Assembly: GCA_017938155.1 (NCBI GenBank)
Contig: JAGBCD010000011.1
Coordinates: 1-44,315, forward strand
Reading direction: 5' to 3'
Length of the DNA: 44,315 nt
From: Paludibacteraceae bacterium
GTDB taxonomy: Bacteria > Bacteroidota > Bacteroidia > Bacteroidales > Paludibacteraceae
Shown: positions 1 through 44,315 of the stretch, in pieces
How the letters are laid out: each line of letters starts with the position of its first letter
Numbering within the stretch: position 1 is the stretch's first letter
Program-made: the position numbers and the translations under genes
The notes under the pieces: model-generated
What the model saw: the letters and a program-made list of their open reading frames with translations, nothing else
The model's database searches: none
What the model was told of the DNA's origin: nothing

Positions 1-560
1 AATAAGACCTTTACCGCTACATGGGATGCAAACCAATATACCATTACTTTGGATAAGCAAGGTGGTACAGGTGGCACCTCAAGTGTATTGGTAACCTTTG
101 ATCAAACCTTGCCAAACATAGTGGCTCCAACTCGTATGGGTTACACCTTTGCTGGTTATTACGATGCAGTAGAAGGCAATGGTACACCTTATTATAATAA
201 TAGTGGAGTAGGTTTGCTATCATGGACCACCGCTTCCGATGGTACGCTCTATGCTGCTTGGACTCCAAACACCAATACGGCTTATGTAGTGAAACACTAT
301 CGTCAAGCATTGGATGGCACCTATCCTTCTACCCTCATGGAGGTAGAGAATCTTACCGGTACTACTGCAGCAAGTGTTACACCAGCAGTTAAGACCTATA
401 CAGGCTTTACTTCTCCTGCTACTAAGACGGTAACCATCGCTGCCGATGGAACAACAGAGGTAGCGTATTACTATACCCGTAATAAGTATTTCTTACAATG
501 GATTACGGACGGTAATGCATTGACCGGTGCTTATACCAAAGACTCTGTATTGTTTGAAAC
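1..560 (+). repeat. Long intragenic direct repeat, first copy (second at 1060-1619)
   Basis: Bases 1-560 recur almost unchanged at 1060-1619, an offset of 1059 bp (353 codons). The first ~118 bases are the same in both copies as read by eye, and scattered differences follow. The repeat keeps frame, so recombination between copies would add or remove 353 residues. Confidence 0.9.
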
Positions 561-6500: not shown

Positions 6501-8343
6501 GCTTGTAGCTGCTGACGGATATGCCATCTTGCGTTATTATTATGAGCGCAATGTATATCCAGTTGTCTTCATCAACGAAGAGGACACATTATTGAAACTA
6601 CAATTGCCATACGACTCCATGCCACATTATGAGGGTGTTATTCCTACTCGCGATGCGAATGCACAATACACTTACACATGGAATGGTAATTGGAAACCAA
6701 TGATTCATCCTGTGGATGGTAGCAACGATATCTATCATGCAGATTTCGACTCGATTGTCAATCAATATGTAATCACGTTTATGTATGATACCGACACCGT
6801 TCAAGTAGATACATTGGATTATGGAACCTTGCCTACTTATCAAGGACAACCATTGACCAAAGACTCTACCGAGCAATGGGCATATCAATTTGCAGGATGG
6901 GATCCTACTATCGTTGCCGTAACGCAAGATACTACCTACTATGCGCTATTTGACTCAACGTTGGTAGAGTACAATATATCCTTCTACAACTACGATTCTA
7001 CATTGGTCTTGGATACCTTGATAGCATATGGTACAATGCCAGTTTGCGATAGCATTCCTACCAAGGATATGACACCTGAATGGACATACCTATTCATTGG
7101 ATGGGAACCTGCCTTAGAACTGGTGACAAGAGATACTGCATACTATGCAATCTTTGATTCAGTACCAACCTACTATCAAATCACGTTCTTGAACTGGAAT
7201 GATACTATCTTGTTACAAGATTCGTTCATGTATGCATCTATTCCTGTATGCGATGTCATCCCATACAAAGAACCAGATGCACAATACATTTATACGTTTG
7301 CAGGTTGGGATCCTGCTATCGTACCTGTTGAACAAGATACGGTATATAAGGCACTGTTTGACTCTATCATCAATGAATATTTGATTACCTTCGTTTGTGA
7401 TGGAGATACCTTACAAGCCGATTCATTGGCTTATGGAACCATGCCAGAGTACGTAGGCGAAACACCTACTCGTGATTCGACTGCTCAATACTCATTCACT
7501 TTCGTAGGATGGACTCCTCAAGTGGACACCGTTCGTATGGATATGATGTACGAAGCAACTTTCGATTCGACACTCAATCAATATCAGATCACCTTCGTCA
7601 ACTGGAACGACACCATCTTGCAGCAAAGCATGTGGAACTATGGCGATATGCCGTTCTACAATGGTGTACCTGTCAAAGATACAACTGCCCACTTCAACTA
7701 TCAGTTTGCTGGTTGGGAACCAATCATCGAACCAGTCATCTGTGATACGATCTACAAGGCTGTCTTTGACTCCGTCATCAATCCAGATGAATGTTATTGT
7801 GATAGCGCACCTGCTGTTGAACTATACGACTGGTTCTTGATGCTCGATGTGAATAGTTTGTATGCAATGGGTTATACCTTCAGTGCTGAAGATGTTACAT
7901 GGTATCGTGTTACAGGTGCTGAACCTGATACAATGGGTACTCCTGCATATGATCGCAAAGATGAGATTGTAGGAAGAGGATTCCACTTCACACCTGAAAC
8001 ACCATTGGTAGGTACAGGTTCATATTATGCAGAGATAACCCTTCCAAAACAAATAGCAGATGTACTCTGTCAAGACTTTATGAGAACACGTATCTTTACC
8101 TTCACCAATACTCGTCTCTTGTTGGCACCAAGCATCGTTTATCCTCACGAGTCCTTGCACTTGTATGGATTGCCAGAGGGAGTAGAATCAACCCTACATA
8201 TCTATGATGCAACGGGTAAATTGGTGGATGTGATGAAGACCACTGCCTCACATATATCTTGGACGACACCAGTTACTGGTACCTATATGATATTAGTTCA
8301 GTCACAAGATATTCATGAAGTACTCAAGTATATTGTTAAGTAA
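1..8343 (+). CDS. Giant secreted InlB/Listeria-Bacteroides-repeat protein with type IX secretion C-terminal domain (5' end outside window)
   Basis: The frame is open from base 1, so the gene starts upstream; at least 2780 residues are visible. The body alternates two module types. One has the signature NTPYxVEHY...LTGTT...YEGFTSP...TIAADGSTVVEYYYTRN; I count 14 HY motifs. The other is an InlB B-repeat-like module, TWxTDGxxLTGSY...PTKTGYTFAGW...TMPA...TATW. Four extra DxQGG modules occur. From about base 6550 the architecture changes to six ~70-residue repeats of the form YxITFxxxDT...YGxMP...PTKD...YxFAGWxP...DTxYxAxFDS. The last ~75 residues (from about 8120, APSIVYPHESLHLYG ... GTYMILV ... 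KYIVK) look like a type A T9SS sorting domain, so the protein is probably exported through the outer membrane and surface-anchored or released. Such repeats are common in bacterial adhesins and surface proteins; the ligand is unknown. The downstream barrel gene starts 11 bp after the stop and is probably cotranscribed. Confidence 0.93.
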   Translation, partial: NKTFTATWDANQYTITLDKQGGTGGTSSVLVTFDQTLPNIVAPTRMGYTFAGYYDAVEGNGTPYYNNSGVGLLSWTTASDGTLYAAWTPNTNTAYVVKHYRQALDGTYPSTLMEVENLTGTTAASVTPAVKTYTGFTSPATKTVTIAADGTTEVAYYYTRNKYFLQWITDGNALTGAYTKDSVLFETTITEPATPIKTGYTFAGWNAPVPTTMPAGDKTFTATWTANTNTPYAVHHYQLNLDGSRPATPTEVENFTGTTGISVEPMVKTYEGFTSPAPKTVTIAADGSTIVEYEYTRKTYTLTWVTDGDALTGSYTKGGVLYGTSIVAPNTPTKTGYTFAGWNEAVPATMPATNKTFTATWDANQYTITLDKQGGTGGTSSVLVTFDQTLPNIIAPTRIGYTFAGYYDAVEGNGTPYYNNSGVGLLSWTTASDGTLYAAWTPNTNTAYVVKHYRQALDGTYPSTLMEAENLTGTTAAIVTPAVKTYTGFTSPATKMVTIAADGTTEVAYYYTRNKYLLQWITDGNALTGAYTKDSVLFETPITQPDEPTKTGYLFNGWKGAPVATTMPAQALTYEALWKPDPNTPYAVHHYQLNLDGSRPATPTEIENFTDTTGTTVKPMVKTYEGFTSPAPKETTILADGSTVVEYEYTRNSYTLSWNANGGTLTGTYTQGTVFFGTPIVVPTPVRVGYTFTGWDTTPVATMPASNLTYTAQWTPNTNTPYVVEHYLPELDGTYTRVDVDSLTGTTDMTVKPDTRIYTGFTPPTKQTMTIAANGSTIVKYYYTRNTNKLSWTTDGNPLTGSYTRGNAVPYETPIVAPNTPTKTGYMFAGWNPSTIPPTMPDNSLSFEATWTPKTNTPYTVEHYLMQVDGTFALVADSVQHFTGTTADTVIPAVLIIEGFTSPAPQALEIFAEGDAVLKYRYTRNQYNLTWIVDGDPLQEPYTHGSVYYQTPIVQPADPTKVGYTFTGWNPSAIPATMPTNNLTFEAQWDANTNTPYTVEHYLMQVDGTYSTTPDSVQHFTGTTADNITPARITFEGFSLPVAKTVTIAADGSTVVKYKYPRNKYFLEWITDGDALTGSYSKDWLFFGTKIIQPNTPTKTGYTFDTWLPTVAEYMPSMPTTYTATWTPNPNTPYVVKHYQQQLDGSYLTTPTDVDNLTGTTASSITPLTKDYEGFTAPSPQTTTIAADGSTVVEYYYTRNTYYLAWETDGDALTGAYTYGDVLYGTTILVPDQPTKTGYTFAGWDKPIASTMPADSTIYTATWTPNPNTPYTVEHYQQLLDGNWPVTPNDVDNLTGTTASIVTPAVKTYEGFTSPAVDTVAVVADGSLTVRYYYLRNTYNLTWTTDGNPLTGTYTQGAVLYGDNIVKPNDPTKVGYTFTGWNPPTIPTTMPAQDLTFVASFDPNTNTQYVVNHYLQDLDLTHYTLVDSDTLYGTSDAKVIVPVNMYAGFDTIAPVEITIAADGSSVLDYYYNRQTYVLSWDAKGGTLSGTYTTGAVLYQAPIVAPTATRTGYTFAVWAPAFSTIPPTMPHGDVTYGAQWTANHYVVDLDHQGGSSSTNAVMVTYDSLMPPVEVPTKVGYTFAGYYETTKGVGTQYYMQDGSSVHLWNRANDTIIFAHWTPNPNTPYTVEHYLQQLDGTWPTTPEDIDYLTGTTDAYVKPTYKAYEGFTAQDTDSAAILADGSLVIRCYYLRNSYNLTWTTDGNPLTGSYTSGATLYGEAIVLPDTPTKVGYTFKAWDKSIPATMPAEDLTFNALFDPNPNTPYIVNHYLQDLDLTHYTLVDIDTLYGTSDAKVTVPVNMYAGFDTIAPVEITIAADGSSVLDYYYNRQTYVLSWDAKGGTLSGTYTTGAVLYQAPIVAPTATRTGYTFAVWAPAFSTIPPTMPHGDVTYEAQWTANKYVVDLDHQGGSSSMSSVLVTYDSIMPAVEVPVLPGYFFKGYYTLPNGQGSQYYLDNGNSLQVWNVEGDTVVYAHWTPDPNTPYVVEHYQQNLDGTTYPTTPTEVDNLSDTTNIQVIPAVRTYEGFTSPEPDTIIVTADTVTVVRYYYERNPYNLTWDANEGTLSGTYDSGIIYYDAPITAPMANRLGYTFNEWLPTFTGNMPAAHTTYVAQWTPNTNTPYTVEHYLQNMDCTTYPTTPFEVDHLTGTTDTKVVPEVKNYPGFTAPEKDSLLVAADGYAILRYYYERNVYPVVFINEEDTLLKLQLPYDSMPHYEGVIPTRDANAQYTYTWNGNWKPMIHPVDGSNDIYHADFDSIVNQYVITFMYDTDTVQVDTLDYGTLPTYQGQPLTKDSTEQWAYQFAGWDPTIVAVTQDTTYYALFDSTLVEYNISFYNYDSTLVLDTLIAYGTMPVCDSIPTKDMTPEWTYLFIGWEPALELVTRDTAYYAIFDSVPTYYQITFLNWNDTILLQDSFMYASIPVCDVIPYKEPDAQYIYTFAGWDPAIVPVEQDTVYKALFDSIINEYLITFVCDGDTLQADSLAYGTMPEYVGETPTRDSTAQYSFTFVGWTPQVDTVRMDMMYEATFDSTLNQYQITFVNWNDTILQQSMWNYGDMPFYNGVPVKDTTAHFNYQFAGWEPIIEPVICDTIYKAVFDSVINPDECYCDSAPAVELYDWFLMLDVNSLYAMGYTFSAEDVTWYRVTGAEPDTMGTPAYDRKDEIVGRGFHFTPETPLVGTGSYYAEITLPKQIADVLCQDFMRTRIFTFTNTRLLLAPSIVYPHESLHLYGLPEGVESTLHIYDATGKLVDVMKTTASHISWTTPVTGTYMILVQSQDIHEVLKYIVK
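4229..4640 (+). repeat. Second intragenic direct repeat pair (other copy at 5291-5702)
   Basis: The stretch around 4381-4500 recurs at 5443-5562, an offset of 1062 bp (354 codons). Both encode the MYAGFDTIAPVEITIAADG and YNRQTYVLSWDAKGGTLSG segments. The near-identical region extends to about 4640 and 5702. This is a separate duplication from the one at the 5' end but of nearly the same length. Confidence 0.88.
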
Positions 8344-10192: not shown

Positions 10193-10224
10193 ATTGTGTG
10201 TATAAAAAAAATACACTACCTTTG
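10193..10224 (+). promoter_or_regulatory. Bacteroidetes-type promoter of the B12 operon
   Basis: ATTG at 10193-10196 and TACCTTTG at 10217-10224, with the same 20-nt spacing as the tRNA-Ser promoter. The riboswitch aptamer starts immediately downstream. Confidence 0.75.
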
Positions 10225-10225
10225 C

Positions 10226-10400
10226 AGTGCAATTGGTAAAGGGAAGCAGGTGTGATTCCTGCACAGACCCGCTGCTGTGATTCGCAATCTCCAATTCTAT
10301 TCTATAGTCACTGCCCTTGTAGGTGGGAAGGCTGAACTGGTGAGCGATAAGTCAGAAGACCGACCTATTGTATATGACCTTAGGTCATTTTATCGTATTC
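10226..10400 (+). promoter_or_regulatory. Cobalamin (adenosylcobalamin-class) riboswitch
   Basis: The order of conserved aptamer segments is as in the Rfam cobalamin class. GGGAAGCAGGTGTGATTCCTG (10241-10261) comes first, then GACCCGCTGCTGTGA (to 10280), GTCACTGCCC (10307-10316), and the B12-box-like AAGTCAGAAGACCGACCT (10349-10366). It lies in the leader of the btuB-like gene, whose start codon is about 60 nt after the B12 box. In this family, cobalamin binding lowers expression of uptake genes. A hairpin TATGACCT/AGGTCATTT just after the box could form part of the expression platform. Confidence 0.92.
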
Positions 10401-10427
10401 ACTCTCGTGGTATAGAGTTTGCGACGT

Positions 10428-32431: not shown

Positions 32432-34126
32432 TTACCAACCTGGGTTTTGACCGATTTGTGGGTTCACAACGCTTTGGCTTGTTGGAATAGGAGCCAAGTA
32501 GTGCTTTTCGTCAAACTTACGAACGTAGTCTGCTGTTAAGTCTATATAGCCGTTAGCGTCACGTTTAACATCATTTGCGCCTGGCCAGTTATCAGCAATC
32601 CACGCGCCCTTGGTTTGATCTGGATTCTTCTCTGTATCAAGAAGTTCCAATTGATGCCAACGAATAAGTGACCAATAGCGGTCATTGTTGTCGAACATCA
32701 ACTCTACGCGACGCTCACGACGGATTTCCCAAATCAAATCGCTTACACCAATAGTGTTTGCAGGGTCATTAACTGGAGCATACTCTGGCATACCAACGCG
32801 AGTGCGAAGTTTGTTGAGAGATGTTTTAGCATCAGCCTCTTCACCTAATTCTGCACATGCCTCTGCGTGGGTAAGAAGAATCTCAGCCAACCAGAAGAGT
32901 GGGCAGTCAGTTACGTTACCAGTTGTAGATTGACGAAGTGAAGATGGAGTAACTGGCTCGTCAAACTTCAAGATACCATAACCAGTAGTTACTGTATTCT
33001 GAGCAGCACCTTCTTGTTCTGGAATGCCCTCATAACGAGCGCGGTTGTTACCTACGTAGCAGAGGTAACCATCAATTTGTTGAGCCAAACGTGGGTCACG
33101 AGCTTCCAATAGGTGATAGATAACTGGTTTACCAGCATCGTAACCTTCGGTACCAAGTACACCATGGTCATCATTCTTATCAGCAAGAGTACCATCTTTC
33201 TTCAAATATGCATTGAAAGCTGATTTGCTCATGCCATTGGTAGGAGTAGAACCGCAGCAGTAGTCTTGAGTAGCGTGACGAAGCTTAGCAGACTCCAAGT
33301 ATTGTTTATACATAATCATCTCTGTGTTGCCTGCAAGGTCAAGTGAGTTGTAGTTTGCACGATAACCTTCTGCATCTGGAGTCAACTCAAATTTGCCACT
33401 GTTGATGATAGCATCTGCTGCTTTTTTAGCTTCTACCAAATATTTGTCAGAACGCTCTTTGTCGTTCTTGTGGTATTTTGCATATGTACCCTCGAAGAGA
33501 CAGATTTGTGCTTTAATTGCTTGTGCTACATACACGTTGTAAGCGGTGCGAGAATCAGCATTCTTAGTACCCATATTCTCAACGGCATAGTTGAGGTCTT
33601 CAAGCATCTTATCCATTACGAAGTTGCGATCTTGGCGTGGACCATAGAGAATATCAGTATCCTCTGTTGTAAGAGAATGATCTACCCAATAGCAGTCACC
33701 GAATTTGCGTACTACACAGAAATGTTGCCATGCGCGATATAAACGACCAAGAGAGTTATAGTATTTTCTTGTCTCTTCATCCATTGGTACACCATCAAGG
33801 TTTTCAAGAAGAATATTTGCACGACGAACTTCTACGTAACTTGCATCCCAAGTATCATCCGTAGCAGAGATTGTTGTAAAATCCCAAGGAGTGATACCTG
33901 TAACGGCTTGGTTATCATTCAAAGTAGGGAAGTAGAAAGTTCCATAACTACCATTGTTTCCATAACCTTTCCACTCTGCGTAGAAATAGTTGGTGTACAT
34001 TTCTACGTTAGTCTCGCTGGTGAAGAAGTTGTCTTTGGTGAAAGAATCGTATGGGTCATTGTTCAACAAGTCGCAACTTGTAAATAGCACCATACCAGCT
34101 ATCAAACTTAAAATTATCTTTTTCAT
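32432..34126 (-). CDS. SusD/RagB-family glycan-binding lipoprotein, copy A
   Basis: 564 residues from the ATG complementary to 34124-34126; four more codons could be read from an upstream TTG. Lipoprotein signal MKKIILSLIAGMVLFTSC with the Cys after FTS. SusD features: early NDPYDSFTKDNFFTSE, TPR-like helices (LYRAWQHFCVVRKFGDCYW), and the conserved DLIWEIRRERRVELMFDNN and RYWSLIRWHQL, ending HYLAPIPTSQ...NPQIGQNPGW. It caps the paired SusC barrel at the cell surface and captures an oligosaccharide or similar ligand. No glycosidase or regulator lies beside it, so the substrate is unknown. It is clearly paralogous to the SusD of copy B. Confidence 0.95.
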   Translation of the reverse strand: MKKIILSLIAGMVLFTSCDLLNNDPYDSFTKDNFFTSETNVEMYTNYFYAEWKGYGNNGSYGTFYFPTLNDNQAVTGITPWDFTTISATDDTWDASYVEVRRANILLENLDGVPMDEETRKYYNSLGRLYRAWQHFCVVRKFGDCYWVDHSLTTEDTDILYGPRQDRNFVMDKMLEDLNYAVENMGTKNADSRTAYNVYVAQAIKAQICLFEGTYAKYHKNDKERSDKYLVEAKKAADAIINSGKFELTPDAEGYRANYNSLDLAGNTEMIMYKQYLESAKLRHATQDYCCGSTPTNGMSKSAFNAYLKKDGTLADKNDDHGVLGTEGYDAGKPVIYHLLEARDPRLAQQIDGYLCYVGNNRARYEGIPEQEGAAQNTVTTGYGILKFDEPVTPSSLRQSTTGNVTDCPLFWLAEILLTHAEACAELGEEADAKTSLNKLRTRVGMPEYAPVNDPANTIGVSDLIWEIRRERRVELMFDNNDRYWSLIRWHQLELLDTEKNPDQTKGAWIADNWPGANDVKRDANGYIDLTADYVRKFDEKHYLAPIPTSQSVVNPQIGQNPGW

Positions 34127-34193
34127 AACTGTATTCAATTGAGTTAATAGTTAATAATTAATAATTAATATTCATTTGATTGTTAAACATTAA

Positions 34194-37100
34194 TTATAGT
34201 GTTACTTGCAAACCGAATGAATACGAACGCATGAGAGGCGCTGTACGAGCGTATGCTCCATAGCCATAGTTAGCACCTTCTTTACCTCTTGAAACCTCAG
34301 GATCGAAACCGTACTTGGCAGTATGGTTTACGAGGTCAGCTAAATTGTTGAAAGAAGCGTAGATACGAACTTTCTCAATAGTTGCTTTGCGGGTCCATTT
34401 TTGTGGCAAGGTATAACCTACGGTCAAGTTTTTCAAACGGAGATAAGCCATATTAATCAAATACCTATCTTGTGGCACGTAGTTGTTGCTACCCGCATCC
34501 ATAATGGTACCATCTGTAGTTGCAGGGTCGTTTCCTGGGAAAATACGTGGATAGTCAGCATCTTGACGAATTGTTCCCTCTCCCTTTTTAGCAGCCTCAA
34601 TTTCAGCTAAGGTAATATAATCAGTTTGATTAGCATAGATAGTAATATCGGCAGCACGCATCATTGGCATAACAAATGCAGATGTGCTCCACATATCGCG
34701 TTTACCTACACCTTGGAAGAACAAGTCAATATCAAAGCCCTTCCAATCAGCGCCAAGACGGAATGAGTATTGCCAACGTGGAGTGGTGTTACCAATCTTC
34801 ACAAGGTCACCATGATCTTCTACAGTTCCTTTACCCCAATCAATTTTACCATCACCATTTTGGTCAACGAACTTGATATCACCAGGAACAAAGTTAAACT
34901 TAGGATCGACCTCAAGGAGAATTTGATCTGCAATACCATCAGCATAGATTGTATTGCCTTCTTCATCTGTACCAACGATGTCTTCAGGATTGAAATAGCG
35001 ATCGAACTCAAAACCCCAAATTTCACCATACTCTTTACCAGAATATTCGGTGTTTATAAGGTTTTCTGAATCCCATTGAGTGATAACAGCTTTATAGTCT
35101 GCAAGGTTGAAGTTAGCGTGGAGAGTCAAGTTGTCAGCATCACGGAAGGTGTGGCGCCAATCTACGTTCAACTCCCAACCACGAGTGCGGAGTTGACCTT
35201 CATTTCCTTTAGCTGCACTTGCACCGATTACAGAAGGAAGTGGTTTGCCAGGAGCCAACATTCCATTTGTTGTGCGTTGATACCAGTCGAAGTTTACGTT
35301 CAACTCATTATTCAAGAAACCGAGGTCAATACCGATGTTAGTAGTTGCGATATTTTCCCATGTAAGAGAAGGATCTACCATATTAGGTTGATCGAAGTAG
35401 TCATACTTCACATTGCCGCTACCAATCCAGTTAAGAGAAGTAGGGTACTTATACATAGTCTCAAGGAACATATTGCTACCAATTTCTTGGTTACCAATTA
35501 CACCGTATGATGCACGTACCTTCAAGTTGCTTACATATTGCTTAGCCTCTGCGAAGTAAGCTTCCTCGCTGATACGATAACCGAGAGAACCTGATGGGAA
35601 GAATGCCCATTGTGTGTGTGATGGGAACTTGCTTGAACCGTCGTAACGACCGCTCAACTCTACCAAGTAGATACCCTTGTAGTCATAGTTGATACGACCG
35701 AAGATACCTACAGAACCATTATGGCGATGAGCATGGTTATAAGTACTCCAATCGGATGTGAGAATCATTTCTGGCAAGTTGAGGTCTTGCAAATCTTTAC
35801 GAGAGAGCGTTAGATACTCATAATCATCTTTATCAATGTTAGCACCTACCATTATGTTCAAGTTGTGATTATTCCAAGAACCATTGTAGTTAAGATACAT
35901 GTTGGCTACGTGGTTGTAGTAGTGAGAGTTAGTTTGAGTAAGGTAACTGTCTGTAGGATAAGGAGCCATTGCATTACCAGTCCACCAATCCTCTGTAAAC
36001 TCGCCAAACCATGTGTCAACTTGATATTTCGCAGGCATACCGATCGCTTTCTCATTACCTGCGCGATAAGTAAAGGTGTAATCGCCATTGAAAGTCAAAC
36101 CTTTAGCAAGGTTCAACTTGATAAAACCACCAGCGCGAAGGTTCATACGTTTCTTGTAAGCATCGCCAGCCTCTTTCAAACCACCGAGGAATGTATAACC
36201 ATCATATATTTGACCGTCTGGATCCTTGAAATAACCCCAAGGACCAAAGAATGAGCCCCAACGCCAGAGATTAGAGTAACCACCAACGCGATTCTCAGGA
36301 TATTGGTAGTTCCGGTGTTGCATATTGAAGCGAGCACCTACCTCCAGCCACTTATTAATCTTAGTAGAAAGGTTTACTGTTGCATTGAACTTATCCATCT
36401 TATCGGGATTGAAGTTTAAGATGCCTTGTTGGTGATTGTAACCAAGAGACATGTAGTAATTTGTCTTGCCTGAGTTACCCGATACTGACAAGTTATGGTT
36501 TTGAGAAGGAGTAGCATCGTTGAAGAAAATACCAGCTACATCCCAATCTGCGTAGAAACCATATTCATCATAATCAATACCATAAATCATCTCTCGATAT
36601 GGAGATTTACCGTCTTTAATACCAACTTTTGCACCTTCAGAAGAGTTAGCCCAATTGAGCCAATTTTTTGCCTTTTCTTGGAAATCTTTGGTGTCTACAT
36701 ATTTACCAAATAATTCAGCGCGTTCACCAAGATAACCTTTAGCTTCTGTCATTGCAACTGCTTGCTCATATACAGTTGGAAAATTAGGAGATGCAGTTGC
36801 ACGGCTCCATGCAAAGTTGTTGTTGTATGTTACAGTTACTTTCTCTGCAGTCTTAGCAGACTTGGTAGTAACCAATACAACACCGAAAGCAGCACGAGTA
36901 CCGTAGATAGCGGTAGAAGAAGCATCTTTCAATACACTGATAGACTCAATATCATTAGCGTTGAGGTAACCGAGGTTCTCTACTGGAACTCCGTCCACAA
37001 TGTAGAGAGGAGTTGAGGTAGCGCCGTTAGACAAAGTACCGATACCACGAATAACTACCGTAGGATCAGCATCAATATCACCCGTTGCGTTGGTGATAGT

Positions 37101-37571
37101 CAAACCTGGCACAGCACCTTGCAATGCTTTAGCTACGTCAGACTCTGTTTTAGATTCAAGGGTTTTGGAAACATCTACTGTTGTTACTGCACCTGTTAGG
37201 TTCGCTTTCTTTTGCGTACCATAACCGATGGCTACTACCTCGTCGAGTACTTGAGTGTCCTCTTTGAGCATAACAACCATGTCCTTGTGAGCGCGAACCT
37301 CTTGATCCTTGTAACCCATATAGCTTACAAGAAGGGTAACGTTCTTCTCTACTGATAGTACGAAAGCACCATCAATGTCAGTAATCGTACCATTGGTAGT
37401 ACCGACTTCAGCAACGTTAGCACCAATAAGAGGGTCACCATTAGCATCTACTACGCGACCTGTAATAGTTTCAGGAGCTGCATAAGCACTGATGCTAACC
37501 ATTGTCATTGCAAAAACTGCTAATGACATGAGTAGGCTACGAAAGCCATTCTCTTTACGTGTGTTCATCAT
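34194..37571 (-). CDS. SusC/RagA-family TonB-linked outer-membrane importer, copy A
   Basis: 1125 residues. Signal peptide with an SISAYAAPE cleavage region, a carboxypeptidase-D-like regulatory domain (ETITGRVVDANGDPLIGANV), TonB box region VLDEVVAIGYGTQKKANLTG, plug (PGLTITNATGDIDADPTVVI, PLYIVDGVPVENL, ISVLKDASSTAIYGTRAA), then a long beta barrel ending SYSFGLQVTL. It imports the ligand held by the downstream SusD. The 5' end is nearly identical in DNA to copy B, with marked divergence further in. Upstream I find no full consensus promoter on this strand, only TACCTTTA at 37798-37791 with no matching -33 box. It may therefore be unexpressed in the orientation seen. Confidence 0.96.
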   Translation of the reverse strand: MMNTRKENGFRSLLMSLAVFAMTMVSISAYAAPETITGRVVDANGDPLIGANVAEVGTTNGTITDIDGAFVLSVEKNVTLLVSYMGYKDQEVRAHKDMVVMLKEDTQVLDEVVAIGYGTQKKANLTGAVTTVDVSKTLESKTESDVAKALQGAVPGLTITNATGDIDADPTVVIRGIGTLSNGATSTPLYIVDGVPVENLGYLNANDIESISVLKDASSTAIYGTRAAFGVVLVTTKSAKTAEKVTVTYNNNFAWSRATASPNFPTVYEQAVAMTEAKGYLGERAELFGKYVDTKDFQEKAKNWLNWANSSEGAKVGIKDGKSPYREMIYGIDYDEYGFYADWDVAGIFFNDATPSQNHNLSVSGNSGKTNYYMSLGYNHQQGILNFNPDKMDKFNATVNLSTKINKWLEVGARFNMQHRNYQYPENRVGGYSNLWRWGSFFGPWGYFKDPDGQIYDGYTFLGGLKEAGDAYKKRMNLRAGGFIKLNLAKGLTFNGDYTFTYRAGNEKAIGMPAKYQVDTWFGEFTEDWWTGNAMAPYPTDSYLTQTNSHYYNHVANMYLNYNGSWNNHNLNIMVGANIDKDDYEYLTLSRKDLQDLNLPEMILTSDWSTYNHAHRHNGSVGIFGRINYDYKGIYLVELSGRYDGSSKFPSHTQWAFFPSGSLGYRISEEAYFAEAKQYVSNLKVRASYGVIGNQEIGSNMFLETMYKYPTSLNWIGSGNVKYDYFDQPNMVDPSLTWENIATTNIGIDLGFLNNELNVNFDWYQRTTNGMLAPGKPLPSVIGASAAKGNEGQLRTRGWELNVDWRHTFRDADNLTLHANFNLADYKAVITQWDSENLINTEYSGKEYGEIWGFEFDRYFNPEDIVGTDEEGNTIYADGIADQILLEVDPKFNFVPGDIKFVDQNGDGKIDWGKGTVEDHGDLVKIGNTTPRWQYSFRLGADWKGFDIDLFFQGVGKRDMWSTSAFVMPMMRAADITIYANQTDYITLAEIEAAKKGEGTIRQDADYPRIFPGNDPATTDGTIMDAGSNNYVPQDRYLINMAYLRLKNLTVGYTLPQKWTRKATIEKVRIYASFNNLADLVNHTAKYGFDPEVSRGKEGANYGYGAYARTAPLMRSYSFGLQVTL

Positions 37572-37598
37572 AATGTGTTATTAGTTAATTAATACTTT

Positions 37599-37615
37599 GT
37601 GGGAATCTCACCCAC
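37599..37615 (-). promoter_or_regulatory. Leader hairpin GTGGG-N7-CCCAC, copy A
   Basis: A 5-bp perfect stem with 7-nt loop, 27 nt before the susC A start codon. The same hairpin with one loop change precedes susC B. It is a candidate translation or transcript-stability element, or part of a recombination site. Confidence 0.55.
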
Positions 37616-37736
37616 GTTATTATGTAGTTTGTTGTGTTGCGTACAACTGAATTATTATTATAATTATATTTTATTACGCGTGTGCGCATGTGTGTAATTA
37701 TCTTATATGTGTTAAGTATAGATAACAGCATAAATT

Positions 37737-37747
37737 AATCGGTCGTT
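37737..37747. repeat. Left copy of an 11-bp inverted repeat bracketing recombinase and promoter
   Basis: AATCGGTCGTT here and its exact complement AACGACCGATT at 38692-38702. It lies just outside the recombinase stop codon. It is a candidate crossover site. Confidence 0.5.
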
Positions 37748-37773
37748 AAAATTCAGCAATATAATGGGTACAA

Positions 37774-38385
37774 TCAAATGTTTTCATCCATAAAGGTATA
37801 GTAGTAATTACGAACAGTATCACGATTAACATGCAATACATCCCCGATCTTCTTAAAGGACATACCTTCTGCTCTTAAACTTGCTATTTGTTGTTCCTTT
37901 TTGTGTAGTTTATAACTATTCTTGGAGAGTGATTTTCCTCTTGGTCTTCCCAATTTCACTCCTTCAGATTTTTTTCTTGCCAATGCCTCTTTAGTTCTTT
38001 GACTTATCAAGTTTCTCTCAATCTCAGCAGACAACCCGAAAGCAAATGCAAGTACTTTACTTTGAATATCATCGCCTAAGCGATAGTTGTCTTTGATTGT
38101 CCAAACCCTACACTCTTTTGTCATGCAAATATTTAGTATCTCCATAATCATAAAGAGATTTCTTCCCAAGCGCGATAGTTCACTACAAATAATAATATCA
38201 TTTTTCTTTATTTTCCGAAGAAGATTTCCAAGTTGACGACTATTGTAATTTTTGGTACCGCTAATGGTCTCTTCAATCCAATCGTCAATCAATATTTTCT
38301 GAAACATACAAAATTTGTTAATTTCAAAACGTTGGTTCTCCACCGTCTGCTTATCACTACTGACTCTTATGTATCCGTAAATCAT
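37774..38385 (-). CDS. Serine recombinase, Hin/Mpi-type DNA invertase
   Basis: 203 residues. The resolvase/invertase catalytic domain starts GYIRVSSDKQTVENQ with the nucleophile Ser9 by alignment to the family. SELSRLGRNLF (Arg72 and Arg75 region) and FGLSAEIERNLISQRTKEAL form the conserved core and E helix; GVKLGRPRGK is the usual hinge before a DNA-binding helix-turn-helix (IASLRAEGMSFKKIGDVLHV NRDTVRNYY region). Length and layout match small invertases such as Hin and the Bacteroides Mpi group rather than large integrases. It is more AT-rich than its neighbours and sits alone between two divergent susC genes, within an 11-bp inverted repeat. I infer that it inverts local DNA, including the susC B promoter; other distant target sites are possible. 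Confidence 0.93.
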   Translation of the reverse strand: MIYGYIRVSSDKQTVENQRFEINKFCMFQKILIDDWIEETISGTKNYNSRQLGNLLRKIKKNDIIICSELSRLGRNLFMIMEILNICMTKECRVWTIKDNYRLGDDIQSKVLAFAFGLSAEIERNLISQRTKEALARKKSEGVKLGRPRGKSLSKNSYKLHKKEQQIASLRAEGMSFKKIGDVLHVNRDTVRNYYYTFMDENI

Positions 38386-38607
38386 AATTTTGTTAAATTA
38401 AATTTTATAAATGGGATTATTGACATTATTAACAACTTTTCCAGCAACATCATTGACTGATATTGTTACCATGATATATCTGCCTTTGCGAATCACAATT
38501 ACATATATACTTATTTGAGATAAGGAATGTTAAAATATGTTATTAAACATATATTTTGATATTGTATGAAAAATAATTAAATTTTTATATATTTTTTTTT
38601 GCGAATA
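38386..38607. other. AT-rich region upstream of the recombinase
   Basis: No gene seen. It should contain the recombinase promoter on the minus strand, but I find no good TAnnTTTG match there. An imperfect palindrome AAAATATGTT-ATT-AAACATATATTTT (38532-38557) could be an operator. Confidence 0.5.
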
Positions 38608-38639
38608 TTTGTGTACATTGAAAAAAAAGCATAACTTTG
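38608..38639 (+). promoter_or_regulatory. Consensus promoter facing susC copy B
   Basis: TTTG at 38608-38611 and TAACTTTG at 38632-38639, with exact 20-nt spacing. The expected leader is about 180 nt to the susC B start codon. The promoter lies inside the segment bounded by the 11-bp inverted repeat. Confidence 0.82.
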
Positions 38640-38691
38640 TGACCGAAATAGTGTGCAAGTTACTATAGGATAAGTAGAGTTGCCGTGTAAA

Positions 38692-38702
38692 AACGACCGA
38701 TT
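38692..38702. repeat. Right copy of the 11-bp inverted repeat
   Basis: AACGACCGATT, exact reverse complement of 37737-37747. It lies about 50 nt downstream of the promoter -7 box, inside the susC B leader, and is flanked by GTGTAA/TTACAC, which can form a stem. Confidence 0.5.
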
Positions 38703-38784
38703 TAGTTGAGCACTTACACTACACCTATTTATATATGCATAAGGAAAAAAGCAAAGACATTTACACAACTACAACATAATTAAC

Positions 38785-38801
38785 GTGGGTGAAATTCCCA
38801 C
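38785..38801 (+). promoter_or_regulatory. Leader hairpin GTGGG-N7-CCCAC, copy B
   Basis: 5-bp stem with 7-nt loop TGAAATT, 27 nt before the susC B ATG; copy A has the same stem with one loop substitution. Confidence 0.55.
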
Positions 38802-38828
38802 AAAGTATTAATTAACTAATAACACATT

Positions 38829-41800
38829 ATGATGAACACACGTAAAGAGAATGGCTTTCGTAGCCTACTCATGTCATTAGCAGTTTTTGCAATGACAATG
38901 GTTAGCATCAGTGCTTATGCTGCTCCTGAAACTATTACAGGTCGCGTAGTAGATGCTAATGGTGACCCTCTCATTGGTGCTAACGTTGCTGAAGTCGGTA
39001 CTACCAATGGTACGATTACTGACATTGATGGTGCTTTCGTACTATCAGTAGAGAAGAACGTTACCCTTCTTGTTAGCTATATGGGCTACAAGGATCAAGA
39101 GGTTCGCGCTCACAAGGACATGGTTGTTATGCTCAAAGAGGACACACAAGTTCTTGACGAGGTAGTAGCCGTAGGTTATGGTACGCAAAAGAAAGCGAAC
39201 CTAACAGGTGCTGTAACAACTGTTGACGTTTCCAAAACCCTTGAGTCTAAGACCGAGTCTGACGTAGCAAAAGCATTGCAAGGTGCTGTGCCAGGTTTGA
39301 CTATCACCAACGCAACTGGTGACTTGGATGCTGATCCTACAGTAGTTATCCGTGGTATCGGTACATTGTCAAACAGCGGTGTTTCTACTCCATTGTATGT
39401 AGTAGATGGTGTTCCAGTAGAAAACCTTGGTTACCTCAACGCTAATGATATCGAGTCTATCTCTGTATTGAAAGACGCTTCATCTACCGCTATCTATGGT
39501 ACACGTGCAGCTTTCGGTGTTGTATTGGTTACCACCAAGTCTGCTAAGACTGCAGAGAAAGTTAGCGTAACTTACAACAACAACTTCGCTTGGAGCCGTG
39601 CAACCGCTCTTCCTGAGTACCCAACAGTAATGGAGCAAGCAAATGCTTTGACAGAGGCTAACACCCGCGCTGGTTTGGCATCTGAGCTCTTTGGTATGTA
39701 CCTCAACTCACCAGAGTTTATCGCAGGTGCTACTAAATGGCAAGAAAAACATGGTGGCAAATCTGGCTATCGTAAGATGGTTTATGGCGACGACTGGGAT
39801 GAGCATGGTTTCTATGCAGATTGGGATGTAGTAGGTATCTTGTTCAACAATGCTGCTCCATCACAACAACACAACCTCTCTGTATCAGGTAATTCAGGCA
39901 AGACTAACTATTATATGTCTCTTGGTTACAACCACCAACAAGGTTTGATGAACTTCAATCCTGACAAAATGGATAAGTTCAATGCCACTGTTAACCTTTC
40001 TACCAAAATCAACAAATGGTTAGAAGTTGGTGCTCGCTTCAATATGCAACATCGTACTTATACATATCCTTACACTCGTGGTCAAGGTTCATACCAATAT
40101 GTATGGCGCTGGGGTTCATTCTTCGGTCCTTACGGTTACTTTGAAGATGCAGAAGGCAAGCAATACGATGCTCGTAACATGATTGGTTATCGTAAAGCTG
40201 CTGCTGGTCCTGACGGTGATCCAAGCAACGACACATACCAAAAACGTATGAACATGCGTGCTGGTGGTTTCATCAAATTGAACCTCGCAAAAGGTTTGAC
40301 CTTCAATGGTGACTATACCTTTACCTATCGTGCAGGTCGCTACAAAGGTACGGGTTATGAGGAAGATATCGTAAACACATGGTCTCTCTTCGGTGAAGAT
40401 TGGTCACATGGTCCAACATCTACCTCTACTTTCATTGAGACAGAGAACACTCATTACTACAACCACGTAGCTAACATGTTCTTGAACTACAATGGTTCAT
40501 GGGAAGGACACAACCTCAACGTAATGGTTGGTGCTAACATTGACAAATCAGAGTATGAGTATTTGTACTACGAGCGTCATGGTATGCAAGATCCTAACAT
40601 GCCAGAGTTGAAACTCTTGTCAGAAGACTACAGCTATAGCCACAACCACAGCCGTAGCGGTTCTGCAGGTGTATTTGGTCGTATCAACTATGACTACAAA
40701 GGCATCTACCTCATTGAGTTGAGCGGACGCTATGATGGTTCAAGCAAATTCCCATCACACACCCAATGGGCATTCTTCCCATCAGGATCTATAGGTTATC
40801 GTATCAGCGAAGAACCTTACTTTGCAGATGCTAAGGAATATGTAAGCAACTTGAAACTACGTGCATCTTATGGTACCATTGGTAACCAAGAAATTGGTAG
40901 CAACATGTTCATCAAGACCATGGCTAAGACTACTAACGGTGTAAACTGGTTAGGTACAGGAACTTCTAAATATGACTATTTCGGAACTCCTAAGATGGTT
41001 GACCCAACCCTAACATGGGAGACTATCGCAACTACTAACGTAGGTATCGACCTCGGTTTCTTCAACAACGACTTGAACGTAAACTTTGACTGGTATCAAC
41101 GTACAACCAATGGTATGTTGGCTCCAGGTAAGGAGTTGCCATCTGTACTTGGTGCAAGTGCAGCTTATGAGAACGCAGGTCAACTTCGCACACGCGGTTG
41201 GGAATTGAACATTGATTGGCGTCATACTTTCAAAGATCTTGACGACCTCTCATTGCATGCAAACTTCAACCTCGCTGACTACAAAGCAACTATTACCAAC
41301 TGGGATTCTAACGACCTTACCAACACCAAATATACTGGTAAAGAGTATGGTGAAATCTGGGGCTTTGAGACCGATCGTTATTTCACAGCAGCAGACTTCA
41401 ATGCCGATGGTACTTATGCAGCTGGCGTAGCAGATCAATCAGGTCTTGAGAAAGATAAAGCATTTAGCTATGGTCCTGGTGATATCAAGTTCGTTGACCA
41501 AAACGGTGACGGCGTTATTGATTGGGGAGAAGGAACGAAAGATGATCATGGTGACCTCGTGAAGATTGGTAACACCACTCCTCGTTTCCAATACTCATTC
41601 CGTCTCGGTGCAGACTGGAAAGGTATTGATATTGACCTCTTCTTCCAAGGTGTAGGTAAACGTGATATGTGGAGCCCATCTGCATTCGTTATGCCTTTGA
41701 CACGTGGTACTGACGCTATCTATGCATGGCAAATGGATTACGTAACACAAGAAATGGTTGACAACAATGCCATCAACCAAGATGCTCGCTACCCACGCCT

Positions 41801-42152
41801 CTTCCCAGGTAATGCTGGTCAAGGTGTAGCAAGTGCTAACATCATGGATGCTGGTCGCAACAACTTCTACCCACAAGATAAGTATTTGATCAACATGGCT
41901 TATCTTCGTTTGAAAAACTTAACCGTTGGTTACACCTTGCCACAAAAGTGGACTCGCAAGGCAACTATCGAGAAAGTACGTATCTACGCTTCATTCAACA
42001 ACTTGGCTGACCTCGTAAATCATACCGCTCAATACGGTTTCGATCCTGAGGTATCATCAGGTCGTGGTACTGGTAGCTTCGGTAATGGTACCTATGGTCG
42101 TGTAGAACCTCTCATGCGTTCGTATTCATTCGGTTTGCAAGTAACACTATAA
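38829..42152 (+). CDS. SusC/RagA-family TonB-linked outer-membrane importer, copy B
   Basis: 1107 residues with the same domain order as copy A: signal peptide, carboxypeptidase-D-like domain, TonB box VLDEVVAVGYGTQKKANLTG, plug, and a barrel ending SYSFGLQVTL. Up to about residue 258 the protein is almost the same as copy A. The barrel then has unrelated loops (for example ALPEYPTVMEQANALTEANT) between conserved strands, suggesting a different ligand. It has a strong consensus promoter and long leader. SusD copy B follows after about 70 bp. The DNA favours codons such as CGT, GGT and AAC, as in highly expressed genes. Confidence 0.97.
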   Translation: MMNTRKENGFRSLLMSLAVFAMTMVSISAYAAPETITGRVVDANGDPLIGANVAEVGTTNGTITDIDGAFVLSVEKNVTLLVSYMGYKDQEVRAHKDMVVMLKEDTQVLDEVVAVGYGTQKKANLTGAVTTVDVSKTLESKTESDVAKALQGAVPGLTITNATGDLDADPTVVIRGIGTLSNSGVSTPLYVVDGVPVENLGYLNANDIESISVLKDASSTAIYGTRAAFGVVLVTTKSAKTAEKVSVTYNNNFAWSRATALPEYPTVMEQANALTEANTRAGLASELFGMYLNSPEFIAGATKWQEKHGGKSGYRKMVYGDDWDEHGFYADWDVVGILFNNAAPSQQHNLSVSGNSGKTNYYMSLGYNHQQGLMNFNPDKMDKFNATVNLSTKINKWLEVGARFNMQHRTYTYPYTRGQGSYQYVWRWGSFFGPYGYFEDAEGKQYDARNMIGYRKAAAGPDGDPSNDTYQKRMNMRAGGFIKLNLAKGLTFNGDYTFTYRAGRYKGTGYEEDIVNTWSLFGEDWSHGPTSTSTFIETENTHYYNHVANMFLNYNGSWEGHNLNVMVGANIDKSEYEYLYYERHGMQDPNMPELKLLSEDYSYSHNHSRSGSAGVFGRINYDYKGIYLIELSGRYDGSSKFPSHTQWAFFPSGSIGYRISEEPYFADAKEYVSNLKLRASYGTIGNQEIGSNMFIKTMAKTTNGVNWLGTGTSKYDYFGTPKMVDPTLTWETIATTNVGIDLGFFNNDLNVNFDWYQRTTNGMLAPGKELPSVLGASAAYENAGQLRTRGWELNIDWRHTFKDLDDLSLHANFNLADYKATITNWDSNDLTNTKYTGKEYGEIWGFETDRYFTAADFNADGTYAAGVADQSGLEKDKAFSYGPGDIKFVDQNGDGVIDWGEGTKDDHGDLVKIGNTTPRFQYSFRLGADWKGIDIDLFFQGVGKRDMWSPSAFVMPLTRGTDAIYAWQMDYVTQEMVDNNAINQDARYPRLFPGNAGQGVASANIMDAGRNNFYPQDKYLINMAYLRLKNLTVGYTLPQKWTRKATIEKVRIYASFNNLADLVNHTAQYGFDPEVSSGRGTGSFGNGTYGRVEPLMRSYSFGLQVTL

Positions 42153-42221
42153 TTAATGTTTGAGAAACAGATTGAATATTAATTATGAATTATTAACAAA
42201 TTAACTAAATTGAATACAGTT

Positions 42222-43913
42222 ATGAAAAAGATAATTTTAAGTTTGATGGCTGGTATGGTTCTTTTGACAGGTTGCGACTTGTTGAATCCAAACCCAATCG
42301 ATAATTTTACCGAGGATAACTTCTTCACCAGCGAGACCAACGTAGAAATGTACACCAACTATTTCTACAGCGAATGGGCTGGTTACGGAAACAGTGGTTC
42401 CTATGGTGATTTCTATTTCCCTAATTTGAACGACAACCAAGCTGTAACAGGTCTTTCTGGTTGGAACTTCAAGAACGTAAGTGCTTCTGATGGGACATGG
42501 AATGCTTGCTATACCGAGATTCGTCGTGCAAACATCCTACTCAAGCATATTGACGCTGTTGATATGCCTGCAGCAAGCAAAGATTACTACAAATCTCTTG
42601 CTCACCTCTATCGCGCTTGGCAACACTTCTGCGTAGTACGCAAATTCGGTGATTGCTACTGGGTAGATAAAGAGTTAACCACAGAAGATGCAACTATCCT
42701 TTATGGCAAACGTCACGCTCGTAACACCGTAATGGATAATGTATTGGCAGACCTCAACTTCGCAGTTGAAAACATGGGTACCAAGAACGCAGGTTCACGT
42801 ACAGCATACAACGTACACGTAGCTAACGCTATCAAATCACGTATTTGCTTGTTCGAAGGTACTTATGCTAAATATCACCAAAACGATGCTGCACGTGCAG
42901 AGAAATACTTGAAGGAAGCTCAAAATGCATCATTGGCTATCATCAATAGCGGCAACTTTGAATTGACCCCAGGTGCTGCTGGTTACCGTGCAAACTACAA
43001 CTCACTTGACTTGGCTGGCAACAAAGAGATGATTATGTACAAGAAATACATCGCTGGTACTCTTCCTCACGCTACTCAAGACTACTGCTGTGGTTCTACT
43101 CAAACCAACGGTATGAACAAAGCTGCTTTCAACTCATATTTGATGAAAGACGGTAAACTTCCTACTGGAGATGACAAAGGTAAACTCGGAACAGATGGTT
43201 TGGATAAAGATAAACCAGTTATCTATCACCTTTTGGAAGCTCGTGACCCACGTTTGGCTCAACAAATCGATGGTTACTTGGCATACGTAGGTAATGGTCG
43301 TATCCGTTACGAAGGAATGGAAGGCCAAGCAGGTGCTGCTGAGAACACATCTTCTACTGGTTATGGTATCTTGAAATTTGATGAGCCAGCTACTCCAGCA
43401 GCTCAACGTCAAGCTACTAATGGTAACGTAACAGATGGTCCTATCTTCTGGTTGGCAGAAATCATCCTTAACCAAGCTGAAGCTTGCGCTGAATTGGGTG
43501 ACGAAGCAGGTGCTAAGAAGTATGTTAACATGTTGCGTACCCGTGCAGAAATGCCAGAACTCGCATTGCAAAACGACCCTGCTAACAACATGGGTGTTAG
43601 CGACCTTATTTGGGAAGTACGTCGTGAGCGTCGCGTAGAGTTGATGTTCGACAACAACGATCGTTATTGGTCACTCATCCGTTGGCATCAATTGGATAAA
43701 CTTGATACTCAAAAGTATCCTGATCAAACTAAGGGTGCTTGGATTGACCCATCATGGCCAATCGCAAAGGAGAGTGTTAAGTTGGATGCTAATGGCTACA
43801 TCGATTGCCAAACAACTGATCCACGTGTATTCGAAGAGAAACACTACCTTGCTCCTATCCCATCTGGTCAAATCACATTGAACCCAGAAATCGGTCAAAA
43901 CCCAGGTTGGTAA
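42222..43913 (+). CDS. SusD/RagB-family glycan-binding lipoprotein, copy B
   Basis: 563 residues from the ATG at 42222 (MKKIILSLMAGMVLLTGC, lipobox LTGC). SusD signature segments are as in copy A: FTEDNFFTSETNVEMYTNYF, LYRAWQHFCVVRKFGDCYW, DLIWEVRRERRVELMFDNN, RYWSLIRWHQL and a C-terminal NPEIGQNPGW. It is clearly paralogous to copy A, with most change in surface segments such as residues 65-115. It pairs with SusC copy B. A terminator follows 26 bp after the stop. Confidence 0.96.
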   Translation: MKKIILSLMAGMVLLTGCDLLNPNPIDNFTEDNFFTSETNVEMYTNYFYSEWAGYGNSGSYGDFYFPNLNDNQAVTGLSGWNFKNVSASDGTWNACYTEIRRANILLKHIDAVDMPAASKDYYKSLAHLYRAWQHFCVVRKFGDCYWVDKELTTEDATILYGKRHARNTVMDNVLADLNFAVENMGTKNAGSRTAYNVHVANAIKSRICLFEGTYAKYHQNDAARAEKYLKEAQNASLAIINSGNFELTPGAAGYRANYNSLDLAGNKEMIMYKKYIAGTLPHATQDYCCGSTQTNGMNKAAFNSYLMKDGKLPTGDDKGKLGTDGLDKDKPVIYHLLEARDPRLAQQIDGYLAYVGNGRIRYEGMEGQAGAAENTSSTGYGILKFDEPATPAAQRQATNGNVTDGPIFWLAEIILNQAEACAELGDEAGAKKYVNMLRTRAEMPELALQNDPANNMGVSDLIWEVRRERRVELMFDNNDRYWSLIRWHQLDKLDTQKYPDQTKGAWIDPSWPIAKESVKLDANGYIDCQTTDPRVFEEKHYLAPIPSGQITLNPEIGQNPGW

Positions 43914-43974: not shown

Positions 43975-44315
43975 GCATTTGATGCCTGAAACCTTGAACC
44001 TTTGAAACTGCAGCTTCGCTGCAATGAAACAAGCATCTTTGATGCCTGAACCCTTGAACCTCTGAAACTGCAGCTTTGCTGCAATGAAACAAGCATCTTT
44101 GATGCATGAAACCCTTGAACCTTTGAAACTGCATCTTTGCTGCAATGAAACAAGCATCTTTGATGCGTGAAACCTTGAACCTTTGAAACAGCAGCTTTGC
44201 TGCAATGAAACAAGCATCTTTGATGCGTGAAACTCTTGAACCTTTGAAACTGCAGCTTTGCTGCAATGAAACAAGCATCTTTGATGTATGAAACCTTGAA
44301 CCTCTGAAACTGCAG
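43975..44315. repeat. 60-61 bp tandem repeat with paired mini-hairpins, about 5.6 units, continuing past the window
   Basis: Unit boundaries marked by GATGC fall at 43981, 44041, 44101, 44162, 44222 and 44283. Each unit reads GCATCTTTGATGC, then TGAAACCCTTGAACCTTTGA, then GCAGCTTTGCTGC and AATGAAACAA. GCATC-TTT-GATGC and GCAGC-TTT-GCTGC are each a 5-bp stem with a 3-nt loop. Units differ by a few bases and single indels, and there are no unique spacers. Confidence 0.93.

Follow-up and report, generated by a model that had tools for sequence, protein, structure and literature searches.

The window, which is the whole 44,315-bp stretch of DNA that was analysed, represents one entire contig of a genome assembly (1.96 Mb in 45 contigs, 93% complete). 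Two susC-susD pairs point outward in it, each with susC followed by susD, and the centre between them holds a recombinase gene and a single promoter (Table 1). The earlier note had described an outward-facing susC pair around a centre of about 1.2 kb, containing a Hin/Mpi-type serine recombinase and one consensus promoter facing only susC B, with an 11-bp perfect inverted repeat around both. All of these parts were recovered, with 1257 bp measured between the starts of susC A and susC B.

Table 1. Features of the susCD locus and their positions in the window.
Feature	Position	Strand	Evidence or remark
susD A	32432..34138	-	SusD_RagB, 132 bits
susC A	34194..37571	-	TIGR04056, 851 bits; no consensus promoter faces susC A in the assembled orientation
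Inverted-repeat left arm (susC A 5' half and leader)	36739..37619	-	881 nt, 91%
Left crossover site, putative	37737..37748	-	minus strand reads TAACG-AC-CGATT
Mpi-family serine recombinase, 203 aa	37774..38385	-	NF009949, 324.2 bits (cut-off 272); PF00239
Promoter TTTG-N20-TAACTTTG toward susC B	38608..38639	+	promoter scan
Right crossover site, putative	38691..38702	+	AAACG-AC-CGATT
Inverted-repeat right arm (susC B leader and 5' half)	38781..39661	+	881 nt, 91%
susC B	38829..42152	+	TonB-dependent receptor domains
susD B	42210..43913	+	SusD_RagB, 133 bits

Elsewhere in the window, a very long open frame with many similar repeats (1-8343) is open at the contig start, a cobalamin riboswitch (10217-10382) is located ahead of an ORF at 10419 which by eye resembles an outer-membrane receptor, and a tandem array of 5.6 copies of a 60-bp unit (43978-44315) lies past susD B and runs off the contig end. 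A small hairpin GTGGG...CCCAC is found right ahead of both susC starts (37598-37616 and 38784-38802) and is conserved in the related loci L031 and L231; it is a possible leader element.

The promoter was the only TAnnTTTG with a spaced TTTG (TTTG, 20 nt, TAACTTTG) when positions 37500-38900 were scanned on both strands, and no consensus promoter facing susC A in the assembled orientation was found in this range. Its -7 box starts at 38632 on the plus strand, 190 bp ahead of the susC B start. Inversion would turn the promoter to susC A, as the earlier note had proposed, and the computed distance to the susC A start would then be 229 bp. The promoters of the window, L079 and L031 are located on the N-terminal side of the recombinase and are directed away from it. 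In the 11 cassettes of genus g9 with a spaced outward promoter, the promoter lies on the C-terminal side and has the same direction as the recombinase. Of 27 cassettes, 13 have a recognisable outward promoter with a spaced TTG; L325 has an inward promoter only, and no promoter with a spaced TTG was recognised in the other 13.

The assignment of the recombinase to the Mpi family rests on NF009949 (Table 1). Its serine-recombinase domain is intact, since the PF00239 match spans profile positions 1-144 of 145. Residues 1-185 align with a solved DNA-invertase; the best solved-structure matches were 4m6f and 3uj3 ('DNA-invertase'), both of which are taken to be Gin, and the conserved stretches presumably contain the catalytic residues. 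The nearest relative by recombinase is found in L031, from a Paludibacteraceae bacterium of water buffalo caecum (82% identical). In a broad recombinase set of 197 rows, susC was located within 1500 bp on both sides in only three, namely the window, L079 and L167 (G544, genus g9), so that the two-sided arrangement is a minority use of the recombinase family; L172 and L189 have a susC within this distance on one side. In a tree of 200 recombinase sequences, in which L272 forms a long branch of unsure placement, four susC-linked loci require three label changes, from which the association of susC with the recombinase seems to have arisen more than once. Within the series L031-L110, a sequence end lies less than 600 bp from the recombinase in 33 of 80 loci; assemblies seem to break at this point, which could be caused by inversion or by repeats.

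The 11-mer AATCGGTCGTT at 37737-37747 has its complement at 38692-38702, and the pair encloses both the recombinase and the promoter. Long near-perfect inverted repeats of 19-25 bp, which form the sites of Mpi in Bacteroides fragilis, are absent at the window, where 11 bp are perfect and the repeat extends to 25 nt at 76%. No exact inverted match longer than 11 occurs between the two intergenic flanks, which are not homologous, and a match of at least 11 was obtained in 108 of 1000 dinucleotide shuffles of these flanks; the repeat taken alone is therefore suggestive only. It is the site evidence from other loci that raises the pair above chance. For the site search, 208 distinct recombinase rows were gathered (L189, present in pieces, is counted twice). 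In a flank-wide count of 7-mers AACGACC was unexceptional (4 of 208 rows), as eight other 7-mers with four GC reach at least four rows. The longer pattern AACGACCnnTT(N7)GC has three matches in the window's own genome, two of which are the arms, and no second matching site pair was found there with this pattern, which could miss looser sites. The third match (on C44) was rejected as a site, as it is located inside a long ORF and has no matching partner around it. The motif GACCGAT, enriched downstream of many recombinases, was likewise dropped: its spacing there is constant at about 260 bp, and by eye it looks like conserved coding sequence (ELIRPILRGRD).

A common site shape was obtained from genus g9, in which a relative was matched at E 1e-50 or better in 110 of the 400 genomes drawn. 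Repeats flanking the recombinase there have the quasi-palindrome AAACG-NN-CGTTT in common. After comparison of these repeats it replaced AACGACCnnTT(N7)GC as the consensus, and the TT after AACGACC was given up as the crossover together with it. The 11-mer of the window corresponds to the core of the quasi-palindrome, and NN is AC in both arms (Table 1), a core that is the same in the two sites and is not self-complementary. Serine invertases require equal, asymmetric two-base cores, and the centre of the palindrome is probably the crossover point. For a test of the cores, the best left and right site of each locus were chosen by the ten outer bases alone and NN was inspected afterwards; where best pairs tied (L324, L381 and L382), the first listed pair was taken. 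NN matched in the inverted sense in 15 of 15 cassettes in which the motif was first noticed, and in three of four invertons, the exception being L231.

Forty loci were then selected for likeness: the window, L079, L272, L031, 16 of 20 loci of one batch and all 20 of a later one. The remaining four of the first batch, L337-L340, yielded no recombinase and were therefore excluded, and L047 was left out as well. The recombinase is located between two divergent susC genes in 28 of the 40 loci, which span the three families f1 (window), f111 (L079, G288:C43) and f9 (all others, retrieved with L272 as the query). NN match in inverted orientation in 27 of these 28 two-sided loci (exception L374). Of the 20 loci retrieved once the motif had been fixed, 15 are two-sided, and 14 of these match. 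The cores of the 27 matching loci are AC/GT (4), AG/CT (9), GG/CC (11) and GA/TC (3), none of them self-complementary; the match is trivial where the repeats are long and perfect and informative where they are short (window, L079, L331). Among the 12 one-sided or truncated loci, three match (L031, L329, L373), four have no pair and five have mismatched cores (L323, L327, L332, L375, L379). With respect to conservation in homologous loci, a point raised by the earlier note, what is conserved is not the 11-mer as such but the AAACG-NN-CGTTT shape, together with the agreement of NN between the sites of a locus. In L231 (6207-6439, G119), a recombinase-free promoter of a type-B susC is located between similar inverted sites about 220 bp apart, the central bases of which differ.

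Independent of the window, a 22-column site matrix was built from L249, L256, L189, L258 and L263 only. Ordinary invertons beside related recombinases have arms of high identity, with 27/27 matching bases in L249 (CAATTAAACGACCCTTTAATTGGTGCA, gap 249), 28/29 in L256, 25/25 in L267 and 26/26 in L047, where the recombinase is enclosed. When the window was scanned, its right arm was match 1 (score 18.2) and its left arm matches 3 and 4 on the two strands (13.7). Scores of at least 13 are reached at 32 of 2.01 million background positions, so that the 13.7 of the left arm alone is not rare, and the highest background score, 20.7, lies above the 18.2 of the right arm. In the stricter control, both flanks were found in inverted orientation among the top four matches for 1 of 2000 column-shuffled matrices. 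A looser control, which accepted any inverted pair among the top four matches, was positive for 32 of 200 shuffled matrices, a number which the inverted repeat of susC may inflate. Counting inverted pairs of matches of at least 13 bits, 150-1500 bp apart, one pair was found in the window and none in 999 kb away from recombinases. Near recombinases such pairs occur in 13 of 208 rows, six of which are training loci (L189 twice); in the pairs of L146 and L142 one match falls within the recombinase gene. Sites of the same kind flank promoters without a recombinase inside in L249, L256 and L189.

The 5' halves of the two susC genes form the 881-nt inverted repeat listed in Table 1, a feature absent from the earlier note. 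It includes uninterrupted identical stretches of 127 and 101 nt, and its first 360 nt are 98-100% identical. SusC A and SusC B are identical over the first 100 aligned residues, where the SusC of L031 is only 69% identical to A, and homologous exchange between A and B has therefore happened. The identical 5' ends may be read as a sign of gene conversion, and homologous recombination between the 5' halves is a possible second route to a flip. The inverted repeats of susC are short or diverged elsewhere (L079, 86 nt at 79%; L272, 224 nt at 71%).

Both orientations of the cassette, which the earlier note had proposed to look for among related genomes, were encountered between species, and closely similar susC genes lie on either side of the cassette in relatives. 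The cassette of L031 has susCD on one side only, and its promoter faces that susC, with promoter and arm at positions aligned with those of the window. Both proteins of L031 are nearer to A over their full length or overall (SusC 82.2% to A vs 75.3% to B, full length; SusD 83.3% vs 75.4%), with a mosaic SusC in which 2 of 12 blocks of 100 columns are nearer to B. As the promoter of L031 faces an A-type susC and that of the window faces B, the cassette is seen both ways relative to susC A. The susCD of L231 (G119) is of type B (SusC 88.9% to B, 72.2% to A) and is faced by a promoter homologous to that of the window; no recombinase was found within 12 kb, and AACGACC is absent at the aligned arm position.

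In genus g9, 11 cross-genome susC pairs are at least 90% identical over at least 900 aa, although these are not independent, six coming from one cluster of four. The cassette is opposite in seven of them and alike in four, and both orientations occur in five of six clusters of susC at least 90% identical. Both cassettes are complete and have matching cores in four of the seven opposite pairs (L381/L384, L381/L383, L382/L386, L384/L385); in each of the other three, one locus is truncated at the end of its contig (L370, L322, L327). For susC pairs 80-90% identical, the cassette was opposite in 11 of 21. The pair list contains no two genomes with both partners in common at 75% identity or above, so that no opposite orientation with the same two partners was found; exchange of susC partners could give rise to opposite orientations between species and thereby mimic inversion. 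In L322, L381, L384 and L385 one susC (91-97% identical) stands opposite different partners in different genomes, as if susCD units were exchanged between genomes. Contigs C25 and C27 of G057, which meet in the recombinase, were rejected as a case of mixed orientations, since they agree over 4397 bp at 99.98%.

The most probable reading, given a probability of about 0.85, is a self-contained either/or promoter switch that chooses between susCD A and susCD B and is run by the enclosed Mpi-family invertase. The earlier note had put forward the same switch, and the anatomy of the locus, the family of the enzyme, arms that fit the motif and the recurrence of the layout in 28 of 40 picked loci all speak for it. 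The invertase would recombine the two inverted crossover sites, both with the core AC, and would thereby flip the roughly 954 bp from core to core, 37743-38696, which contain its own gene and the only recognised promoter. In the assembled orientation the promoter would drive susCD B and in the flipped orientation susCD A. Action of the recombinase on these sites, flipping in the species of the window and silence of the susCD pair not faced by the promoter are predicted from the sequence.

Homologous recombination between the inverted 5' halves of susC, rather than the recombinase, might flip the centre and swap the promoter. The 881-nt repeat at 91% with its long exact runs and the exchange that has happened between A and B fit such a route; it is improbable as the main one, as it leaves both the dedicated recombinase and the matching asymmetric intergenic cores of 27 of 28 two-sided loci unexplained, and the corresponding repeats of L079 and L272 are short or diverged. 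A similarly small chance is given to an ON/OFF switch of susC B alone, in which susC A is served by a separate, unrecognised promoter or is a silent store for gene conversion. This would agree with the missing consensus promoter of susC A in the assembled orientation, with the 5' end it has in common with susC B and with the L031 cassette, which adjoins susCD on one side only. However, in L031 the cassette promoter points at the orthologue of susC A, the two-sided layout recurs in the picked loci, and the promoter distances to the two susC starts are alike (190 and 229 bp).

That the 11-mer is due to chance and the recombinase acts elsewhere is very unlikely. Shuffled flanks reach 11 bp often enough (108/1000), and Mpi of B. 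fragilis acts on 13 regions according to the accessible part of PMC4747536, but the ranks of the arms in the matrix scan (1 and 3/4), the single hit among 2000 shuffled matrices and an own genome without any other matching pair for AACGACCnnTT(N7)GC argue for the arms as sites. Least likely of all is a small mobile element with the 11-mers as terminal inverted repeats. Short inverted repeats do enclose the recombinase, yet the same sites flank recombinase-free promoters in L249, L256 and L189, and the segment is not a plain insert, because its inner promoter is homologous to that of the recombinase-free locus L231.

The proposed either/or switch has features in common with several known inversion systems. 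Hin of Salmonella is a serine invertase located inside the flipped segment together with the promoter; it drives one operon and silences the other flagellin via a repressor. The window is Hin-like in that invertase and promoter lie inside the putative invertible segment, and unlike Hin in that this segment is flanked by two homologous operons, so that the flip itself would choose. Gin and Cin, serine invertases responsible for the either/or choice of phage tail fibres, flip coding parts, whereas in the window promoter and invertase would flip and the genes would stay. Tsr0667 of B. fragilis is a tyrosine recombinase that performs shufflon-type multiple inversions, unlike the window with its serine recombinase and one promoter cassette. 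Mpi of B. fragilis belongs to the same NCBIfam family as the recombinase of the window (NF009949), and its site consensus, ARACGTWCGT, has the AAACG-NN-CGT shape of the window. Mpi is a global serine invertase that runs an ON/OFF system of capsule promoters, whereas the window is two-headed and concerns SusCD. The same shape is found in a PSA primer containing AGACGAACGT (accessible part of PMC10939037). Mpi inverts 13 regions, as stated in the excerpt of PMC4747536, whereas a single matching pair was found for the window, flanking the invertase gene itself. Variation of SusC/SusD proteins by DNA inversion, reported for Tsr0667 in the same excerpt, is a likeness to the window. Promoter inversion by Mpi and SusC/SusD inversion by Tsr0667 are thus already known (excerpts of PMC4747536 and of the review PMC12632263). 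A two-headed SusC switch that encloses a serine invertase, which would add to these, was not found in the literature searched, including the accessible parts of PMC10939037, PMC11868660, PMC11892184 and PMC8748976; the search was partial and is no proof of novelty.

Two further loci with related recombinases were noticed. In L047 (4685-12451) the recombinase lies in a perfect 26-bp inverted repeat between two divergent operons, which by eye resemble sialic-acid type sugar synthesis; this is perhaps the same either/or layout for surface sugars. The recombinase of L189 (4095-8155, G011) is divided between two frames, the susC ORF there continues by eye into susD-like sequence, and an inverton remains ahead of susC (23/24 arm bases match, 154-bp gap).

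In gut Bacteroidales, SusCD pairs are among the main receptors for nutrients, and they also come into contact with phages and the immune system. A SusC epitope that draws T cells is mentioned in PMC10939037. Unlike an ON/OFF switch, a two-headed switch, if real, would yield one receptor to the exclusion of the other. The AAACG-NN-CGTTT shape of the sites, taken with the match of cores within a locus, supplies a purely sequence-based rule by which such switches can be found. It also allows a test of whether different cores hold apart the several invertases that a genome may have. Tentatively, and with slightly less than even odds, the window may exemplify a widespread class of two-headed receptor switches among uncultured Bacteroidales, put together on two or more occasions with differing inner layout, in which an Mpi-type invertase is placed between two exchangeable susCD units. 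The variable core would help to keep the loci private, and the units would be swapped between genomes, so that a lineage may both toggle and renew its receptor pair.
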